NCBI GenBank assembly: GCA_037013685.1
Contig: CM072889.1
Coordinates: 13,835,976-13,899,975 of the forward strand
DNA: 64,000 nucleotides
Direction of reading: 5' to 3'
Origin: Acridotheres tristis
Lineage: Eukaryota > Chordata > Aves > Passeriformes > Sturnidae
This document shows positions 44,001 to 47,000 of the stretch, piece after piece. The stretch's first letter is position 1. The number at the start of each line of letters is the position of its first letter. Below the pieces are notes generated by a model. It had not been told where the DNA came from and did no database searches. It saw nothing but the letters and a program-made list of their open reading frames with translations. A program made the translations under genes and the position numbers.

Positions 44001-47000
44001 AATTGTGATGTTCAGGAAAGAACATAAAAGCTAGAAACATTTTCTATATTATTCAAGGCTGTGCTGAATACTGGCTCCAAGATTATTTTTGCCATCTGGG
44101 TGCTGGTATTAAAAGACACAGCTTCAAAGATAAAAAGCAATATGAAGGTGCTGGTGATTCTTGTATCTTGCAGGCTATGAAAACAGAAAGAGTATTAGAT
44201 TTTTTTTTTCTTCTAAACGGCTGCTGCTTTCATTTTGCTGAATAATCTTTGGGAATGGGACTTGGCTTAAGGCTTCAAACCCAGCTGTGAAGTGTGGCAT
44301 GCTGGGGTATGTCAGAGGGGTTGTCATAGCTGTGATAACTTGAGCTTCACAGAAGACAAATAATTCTTGGGTGCAAAATGGACCTGACAGCAGAGAGCAT
44401 ACTGTGGGAAACAGTGGTTTTTCTCTCCTCTCACTTGTCTAACATGTCCTTTCATCATTACCCTTGTTTGTTTGTGCTTGTCTCTGTATGATATTCCTGA
44501 ATTGCAGTGTGTGCTGTGTTTCAAAGAGGCAGTAGCCTTTGTGCTGTAGCACTCAGAGCTGGGTTATTTTCTTTGCAGACAGAGCACCGGTGTTTCTGCA
44601 GCTCCCAGTTTCCTTCGGGCAGTAGAAACTGATTCTGTGTGCAGATGGGATGTAATGGGAGACACAGGAAGAGCAATTTCCTTAACACGTGCAAATACAG
44701 CTTGCTATCTTCTTAGGAAGAGCTGCCAATATTTACCCATTATCATTTTTACTGAATTTGGGAAGAAGAAATAAGATTGGAACGAATTTGCAGCACATGA
44801 TGATGTTTGCTGGTACGTTACTGCATCCTTCCTCTGACCATGTGGCTCATTGGCACATCCTTGCCCCTGAGAGCCTGGAAATATTCCTTATTCAACTCTA
44901 AATTTCTTATGGGCAGGGTCTGGAGGGGAGGCTGGGCAGGAAGATGTAGTAATGAACTCCTCCTGTCCTGCTTCAGGGACATGGCATGGGGCAGGAGGAG
45001 TGTTTGCCTTTCTGGGCTCGGAAGGAGGAGTGACCGAATCATCACTGTTCTCCCCTGGGAGTGGATGTGCCAGCAGAGGGGCAGCAGGGTGTGACCCCCA
45101 GGAGGGAAGCTGGCCATGGGGGTGGGCTGTGCTGGGGGCTGGCACAACTCCTGTGCTCTCCCTGAATCGTTAAAAACCGATAAGATCACGGACAAAGACC
45201 CTCTAACTAGTTAAAGTTAGAAAGTGTATGTTTATTCACTGTGGGGCAGCACAGGAGTTGTCTCCAAAAGGCATAACCGCCCTGACAAGGTTCTTTGCCC
45301 TCTATTTATTTCCCAAGATCTTACATACAATACAAAAGCATAACCCCAGCACGTCCCATCTCCATTCAATATTAAAATGAGCCCATTAGTCGTTCACGCG
45401 TGTGCAATTCTTCTCTTGAATTGGGTTGTTGGTCTCAAAATGGGTCAGTGGTCTCAAATGATGAAGTCAGGAGAGTCTTTATCAGGTCTCTGTGACCCTC
45501 TGGCATGATCCAAGGCCCTGTGCTTCATATACAGTCCAGGTTCTGGCCATTGTTCTTACTGGTTTCATTCTTGTTCTTATAACTTACTCTACGTTCTTCT
45601 ATACACAGGCTCGCAACGGCAAACAATTAGCTCTAGCTTAAGCATCTAGTAATCATTAACCTACAATTTGCCTACCTAACTTACATCTTGGTCATGGAAA
45701 CTGCTTCTACCCTTAGTCAAAATCTTCACTCTTTAAAGTCATGATTCATCCCATCCCTCAGGGCTGCGTGGAGCCATGGCCTTCGCCCTGGCCATCCGGG
45801 ACACGGCCACGTACGCGCGGCAGATGATGTTCAGCACCACCCTGCTCATCGTCTTCTTCACCGTCTGGGTGTTCGGCGGGGGCACCACGGCCATGCTGTC
45901 CTGCCTCAACATCCGGTCAGTGCAGGCTCCCTCGGGTTTTAGAGAGCAGTGACCTGGTTTGAAAGTCAGGTGTCTTTCTTTGAAATGGAGAATGTAAACC
46001 CCCTCCCTCCAAATTATTATAATTTTGGAATTAAGGGGCTCTCAGGCAAAGATATGGGAATAGGAGTAACAGTTCTTTACTAGCAAAATTAAAATAGAAG
46101 TACAGTATTACAAAGAACAAACCCAAAACACTGACAGAGTCAGAATACAACCTGACACCCTGTCAGGCAGGGTGTTGGTAGCAGTCTCATTAAATGGTGG
46201 CTGCATCCTCCTGGATGACAGATGTGGTTCAGTTGAAGCAGTGCTCCTGTAGAAGGTGCAGTTTTCTTCTGAAGGTCCAGTGATGATGTGGAAAGGTCCC
46301 GTTTTCCTCTGGAATCCAGTGGAAAAAAGGCTGCTTTGGTGTTCTAAATCTCAATTTTTATCTAGGTGGGAAATGCTTGGCTCCTCTCCCTGGGTGGAGC
46401 ATCTCCCAATGGGATGATGTAATTTCATCAGTCATTCAGTAGGACTCAATGGACCATTAACAGAAGATATCTCTCTGGAGGAAGGATGGGTTGTGGAAAA
46501 GATAAAGAACAGTGCCCCACCTGGTTTAACAGATGGTCCATTAGCAGAGAATATCTCCCATGGAGATAAGGATCACTGCCCCACCTGGTTTGAACAGATA
46601 GTGACAGAATACATACTTTCGGTCACATCCTGTATTGCAACCTAAGACACAGAGGCAGATCCCATCCTTCCCCAGATCCTGGCCCTGGCACTGTGTGTGT
46701 GACTCTGCTGCTTCTCTCCTCACAGGGTCGGTGTGGATGCAGATCAGGAGAACGTGGTGAGTGTGGTTACAACCTGCAGGGGTTACATCCTGACCCTGTG
46801 AATGCCTGTCTGTGCTCTGCTTCCTTCCAGCTGTAGGAGCTTTTGGCTCCCCCTCTGAAAGAGTTTGCAGTCAGTGGGAGTCACAGCTTTTCTGTGCTCT
46901 CTGGTTTTCATGAGCCTTGTTTTGACTCAGCTGGAAAGAAAGGCACACAAGCAATGCTAGACTGTTCTATCAGTCCATGTTGCTGCTGCAGTAGATTCAA

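Follow-up and report, generated by a model that had tools for sequence, protein, structure and literature searches.

An antisense solo LTR probably supplies the branch point for exon 12 of SLC9A6 in Acridotheres tristis

Introduction

Transposable elements (TEs) are under-represented near exons in the human and mouse genomes, most of all near splice acceptors, and transposons as close to an acceptor as the one described here are usually harmful in mammals (PMC3088655). Three of five mutagenic mouse LTR insertions less than 20 bp from an exon lie at acceptors, the corresponding figure for full-length LTR elements of the reference genome being one of six (PMC3088655). In SLC9A6 of the bird Acridotheres tristis we find an LTR that resembles these elements of the exon-proximal 'hazard zone' in lying less than 20 bp from an acceptor and in being antisense to its gene, the less harmful orientation for LTR elements. 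Unlike those elements, it appears to be old and sits in an intact gene. The cited study deals with human and mouse; its full-length LTR class is longer than 5 kb, and solo LTRs lie outside its counts.

TEs are also described as a source of splicing signals and of new exons, for example through the acceptors of antisense Alu elements (PMC3088655; PMC7951965). Here, too, a TE would supply splicing signals. However, no new exon arises; the insertion instead takes the place of the branch region that served an old and conserved coding exon. A further parallel is provided by variants that gain an AG between a branch point and its acceptor (PMC10655562): a G at position 45738 of the LTR creates an AG in the high-risk zone of one candidate branch site. 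In contrast to those variants, the gene is apparently working, which points to another branch point and not to disease.

A search of open-licence papers, to the extent of their accessible text, for TE, Alu or LTR together with branch point returned no equal case, which is a weak negative; a similar search for solo LTR together with splice acceptor in birds returned nothing. Long persistence of such an element in a conserved gene would illustrate how a single event can exchange a whole branch region, which is re-tuned afterwards. The LTR in intron 11 of SLC9A6 offers a natural setting in which redundancy among branch points can be tested directly, and it bears on why antisense LTRs near exons are tolerated.

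Results and discussion

SLC9A6 is intact and exon 12 is conserved

The window is the whole analysed stretch of 64,000 nucleotides, to which all coordinates refer. It sits on a contig of 20.56 Mb, and genome searches covered the host genome of 1.04 Gb. Matching the reading frames of the window to a paralogue locus on contig C1, followed by junction fitting, yielded an SLC9A6 model of 16 exons and 681 codons. The frame is open in all 16 exons, and the nearest proteins listed for the gene are bird proteins. Mutations in human SLC9A6 cause Christianson syndrome.

Exon 11 (44701-44812, plus strand) ends in a U2-type donor, CTG/gtacgt. Exon 12 (45762-45915, plus strand) has 154 nt, runs from phase 1 to phase 2 and encodes a peptide ending in CLNI, which equals the solved NHE6 chain 9s8c at 50 of 51 residues. 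All 120 listed relatives (of 6213 passing) keep this stretch of 51 residues, with identities from 45 to 51 of 51; it is identical throughout in 13 of the 120, including Anser, Calypte, Phaethornis, Columba and Aix. In the host genome, exon 12 has one identical place. The next two places, at 88% and 71%, are by inferred name SLC9A7 and SLC9A9. Skipping of exon 12 would shift the frame and lead to a stop at codon 506, in agreement with the earlier claim that the exon cannot be skipped without loss of frame. In the Anser cygnoides NHE6 record, the exon 11-13 peptide appears as a tandem duplicate, which may be an annotation or assembly error.

Intron 11 is 949 nt long; subtracting the LTR and one of its two flanking duplications leaves 359 nt. 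U12-type splicing was considered for this intron, as the LTR family carries a TCTTAAC-like stretch, and was ruled out by the donor, gtacgtta; U12-type donors have the motif RTATCCTT.

A solo LTR ends 13 bases before exon 12

The LTR (45163-45748, minus strand) is 586 bp long, starts with TGAATCG and ends with GATTCA, so that it shows TG...CA ends within 6-bp inverted termini (TGAATC/GATTCA). It is flanked by a target-site duplication, TCCC, at 45159-45162 and 45749-45752. The downstream TCCC and the nine bases between it and the first base of exon 12 (45762), ATCCCTCAG (45753-45761), form the 13 remaining host bases of the intron, TCCCATCCCTCAG (45749-45761, plus strand), with a pyrimidine tract and the acceptor AG. 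A sequence-only reading of the window had placed the LTR, its duplication and the 13 host bases at exactly these positions. TTTATT at 45231-45236 reads AATAAA on the minus strand (45236-45231), near the 3' end of that strand; we take it to be the polyadenylation signal and therefore regard the LTR as antisense to SLC9A6.

Searched against its own genome, the LTR gave 44 matching pieces at the 40 places scored, of 168 candidates. Of the 40 loci examined, 33 (this copy included) span the full length from 1 to 586. All 33 have TG...CA termini, and an exact 4-bp duplication accompanies 25 of them, while mismatched left and right flanks agree by chance over four bases in 1.1% of cases. Duplications of 5 or 6 bp were looked for in the full-length copies and found in 0 of 33. 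The shared boundaries, the TG...CA ends and the 4-bp duplications thus confirm a solo LTR of a multicopy, interspersed endogenous-retrovirus family. A 4-bp target-site duplication is the rule for class I endogenous retroviruses, and it is this rule by which a class I, gamma-type LTR is suggested. The element shares its TG...CA ends and 4-bp duplication with the avian class-I-like (gamma-type) endogenous retroviruses.

An assembly artefact, or a sequence already present in the ancestral intron, is barely credible as an explanation. The exact termini and the 4-bp duplication are common to a genome-wide family, and none of the scored copies is so similar that a misjoin could have come from it: the closest other full-length copy is 86% identical (40 of 168 candidates scored), 89% is reached over 533 columns, and pieces reach up to 92% over 71 bases. 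An artefact and a non-LTR ancestral sequence had both been raised earlier as grounds for rejecting a retroviral branch point; we found neither, and the family boundaries and duplications contradict both.

A perfect inverted match of 14 nt is present between the host flank at 45144-45157, in the old acceptor region, and the LTR at 45248-45261, with a predicted pairing of 0.86. The longest match in 300 Markov resamplings was 12 nt, and other copies have at most 11. The match is extended by TGT at 45259-45261, a triplet that none of the 36 other aligned copies shares (30 have CAC) and that is perhaps a template-switch change.

Branch-point candidates lie in the LTR

Branch points were scored by adenine heptamer frequencies and distance (PMC8531310) and by an AG rule (PMC10655562); how frequencies are divided among the bases inside the purine and pyrimidine classes, and how strongly an AG is penalised, are our own assumptions. 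This score and the acceptor score used below are our own constructions, derived from mammalian figures and 21 sites. Intron 11 was scanned from -9 to -90 relative to the exon, and the comparison set (introns, family, random pieces and empty site) from -12 to -60.

All candidates with a score above 0 in the last 90 bases of the intron lie in the LTR. The best are at -26 (2.05), -18 (1.46), -14 (0.91), -27 (0.86) and -21 (0.53). Adenines in a TNA or YTNAY context about 14-40 nt before the acceptor are found at -14, -18, -26 and -34, all within the LTR and none within the 13 host bases, where the sole conceivable branch adenine, at -9, has a weak CNA motif and scores -3.53. The joined empty site offers a weak CNA candidate only (-25, score -1.52), in a flank where decay has been possible ever since the LTR arrived. 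Among the best scores of the 12 U2 introns of SLC9A6 (0.61-3.33), that of intron 11 is sixth lowest. The sequence-only reading held that the branch point must be retroviral, and the distribution of candidates supports this: we are fairly confident that the branch point is LTR-derived, and that it operates in a working gene. The LTR end is likely to be an exapted splicing signal, and its use may be constitutive.

A host branch point upstream of the LTR might still be used if RNA folding brought it near, and distal branch points brought close by stem-loops do exist (PMC9636908). However, the LTR ends are unpaired in the predicted fold (P 0.0), in which base-pairing to the LTR masks the old tract (mean P 0.86). 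The LTR and its host tail contain 33 AGs including the real acceptor, and the 32 others disfavour simple scanning from a branch point before the LTR. We consider a distal host branch point very improbable. Looping-out of the LTR via its inverted ends was considered and ruled out by the fold (P 0.0).

Three adenines are favoured over the site at -34

The earlier suggestion of a branch point in CTTCACT near 45724 was correct in location (45724-45730, plus strand) and less so in its choice of site. The adenine A45728, at -34, lies in a YTNAY match at normal distance from the acceptor. The base before it has changed from A to C, and the G at 45738, an A-to-G change, makes an AG (45737-45738, plus strand) 9-10 nt after A45728, at BP+9/+10. 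This AG reduces the score of the site from 2.11 for the motif to -4.01 after the AG penalty, below the LTR sites at -26, -18 and -14. In human introns, an AG from BP+8 onward is present in only 0.7%, and the high-risk zone is defined as [BP+8, ACC-4] (PMC10655562). The sites at -26, -18 and -14 have no AG beyond BP+7 before the acceptor, whereas the -34 site does. Given the AG behind the -34 site and the figure of 0.7%, either this AG is skipped or, more likely, another LTR adenine works.

Use of A45728, with an AG 10 nt downstream that is too near and is skipped, would be a variant of the LTR-derived reading. It is helped by the finding that AGs lying closer than 12 nt to a branch point compete less well (Smith et al., cited in PMC10655562), by the AAG context of the AG at 45738, a very weak acceptor (score -3.74) that keeps the site alive, and by the YTAAC found at the homologous place in 35 of 36 other aligned copies. 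Against it stand the A-to-C change beside the branch adenine, the rarity of an AG at this distance and the better scores of the three other sites. We regard it as possible, though doubtful, and lean slightly towards the view that the -34 site is not the branch point.

The branch point now in use is most likely at -26, -18 or -14. The adenine at -26 (45736, plus strand; CTTTAAA) is the best in the intron and has an AG at BP+2, within the tolerated range. The adenine at -18 (45744, plus strand; CATGAT) has no AG before the acceptor, and 87% of the bases from it to the acceptor are pyrimidines. The adenine at -14 (45748, plus strand; TTCAT) is the last base of the LTR, where the host duplication completes a perfect YTNAY motif; its lower score is due to the short distance. 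A narrower proposal, which we advance with little confidence, is that the terminal A45748 or the adjacent A45744 is used and that the -34 site was then freed to decay. As part of the same tentative proposal, the junction TTCA/TC would combine the retroviral CA end with the duplicated TCCC, so that integration itself built a branch point by the old acceptor. If true, this would represent branch-point turnover inside an exapted LTR.

The family carries a stronger site

For the last LTR bases, 20 copies were added to the 36 other aligned copies to give 56; one of them, L062, is gapped at the very end, yet has both of the bases counted. The C at 45727 is found in 0 of these 56 copies and the G at 45738 in 2. 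The top-scoring site is at -34 in 33 of the 36 copies, the family form scores 3.22, and in 32 of the 36 the final 33 bases are free of AG. By comparison, 19% of random pieces of SLC9A6 introns reach the score of the present copy and 5% reach 3.0. The family scores and these rates indicate that the LTR end was a better-than-average, though not unique, branch-point donor; with a fifth of random intron pieces serving equally well, it is not special now. The opposite LTR end is also a good source of branch points (median 2.98 of 34 copies). No constraint is seen on the last 50 LTR bases, with three strictly private positions in 50 as against 17 in 535, both small numbers.

A weak acceptor and an old insertion

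The acceptor matrix was built from 21 U2 acceptors, 11 from SLC9A6 and 10 from the paralogue on C1. The exon 12 acceptor scores 6.71 with the LTR and 8.49 in the joined empty site. It is the second weakest of the 12 U2 acceptors in SLC9A6 (range 5.96-19.85), and in leave-one-out scoring only one of the 21 reference acceptors is lower (5.08). Higher scores are reached by an AG within the LTR, just ahead of 45318 (8.63), and by another that lies upstream of the element (10.32). Nothing else argues as strongly for some loss of efficiency as these acceptor scores, which count against our main reading, that of an exapted splicing signal. A decoy boundary in the LTR, TACCCTTAG/TC (45716-45717, plus strand), with CTAAC at 45676-45680, looked promising by eye and, if used, would bring in 45 nt and an in-frame stop; it was ruled out by its score of -3.68.

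A weak acceptor could result in partial skipping of exon 12, decoy use or intron retention, followed by nonsense-mediated decay, and the earlier reading had left room for such a hypomorphic or alternatively spliced allele. Besides the acceptor scores, it is favoured by the early stops that would follow from skipping, from the LTR AGs ending at 45716 or 45738 and from retention of intron 11, and by the judgement in PMC3088655 that in mammals a TE closer than 20 bp to an acceptor very likely does harm. However, the insertion looks old, the SLC9A6 frame is open with the exon 12 peptide unchanged, and the present branch-point score is mid-range. A hypomorphic allele is therefore unlikely in our view.

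The age of the insertion was approached through a tree of 37 aligned copies (36 and this one), from which L044, L056 and L058 of the 40 loci were omitted because their pieces were merged across a gap or truncated. Positions 45727 and 45738 stayed in this alignment. The present copy has the longest end branch of the tree, 0.104, and a weakly supported sister placement (93/56). It has 20 strictly private positions in 585, at which it differs from all agreeing near copies; the same count in the eight near copies ranges from 3 to 21. PMC2946954 quotes neutral rates of 2-3.9e-9 per site per year for birds; with these, a divergence of 0.034 to 0.104 corresponds to about 9 to 52 My, a rough range and not a date, which argues against a recent hypomorphic allele. 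Part of the divergence, both site changes included, may predate the insertion, which leaves the age, the order of events and fixation soft. L002 and L004, which belong to the same group, have end branches near 0.01, and the group was thus active more recently too.

Searches with the two halves of the LTR gave a similar picture. For the first half, no near-identical copy was found at the 40 places scored of 156 candidates, the best other match being 88%. The second half likewise had none at the 40 scored of 137 candidates; its best whole-length match is 84%, and pieces of 48 to 125 bases match at 90-92%. Judging from these sequence comparisons, a young segregating insertion is unlikely.

A proposed history of the branch region

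Our data suggest the following course of events. An antisense solo LTR inserted in the acceptor region of intron 11, downstream of the old branch region but before the nine bases that adjoin exon 12, and it probably became fixed or at least long-lived. The old branch region was thereby pushed about 590 bases upstream, with the LTR end taking over its spot. At arrival, this end probably placed a strong YTAAC at a distance of 34 bases from the exon, with an AG-free stretch between them. Changes that this copy carries, and that may have followed the insertion, would have weakened the -34 site and made an AG behind it, and the branch point would then most likely have moved to -26, -18 or -14. Splicing of exon 12 would now use an adenine in the terminal 34 LTR bases together with the host tract TCCCATCCCTC and AG.

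Other features of the locus

Several other introns of SLC9A6 have uncommon splice sites. The donor motif RTATCCTT is present in introns 7, 10 and 14, all three of which look U12-type. Intron 7 (42174-42399) is an AT-AC intron, ATATCCTTTT...TCCTTAAC, and its donor motif is the same in the paralogue on contig C1; introns 10 (43152-44700) and 14 (48017-48594) have the form GTATCCTT...TCCTTAAC. Intron 8 (42506-42731) combines a GC donor (CAG/gcaagc) with an AG acceptor, and exon 13 (46726-46756) is a micro-exon of 31 nt. A direct repeat of 206 bp, 93.7% identical between 52576-52781 and 53461-53666, lies 3' of SLC9A6.
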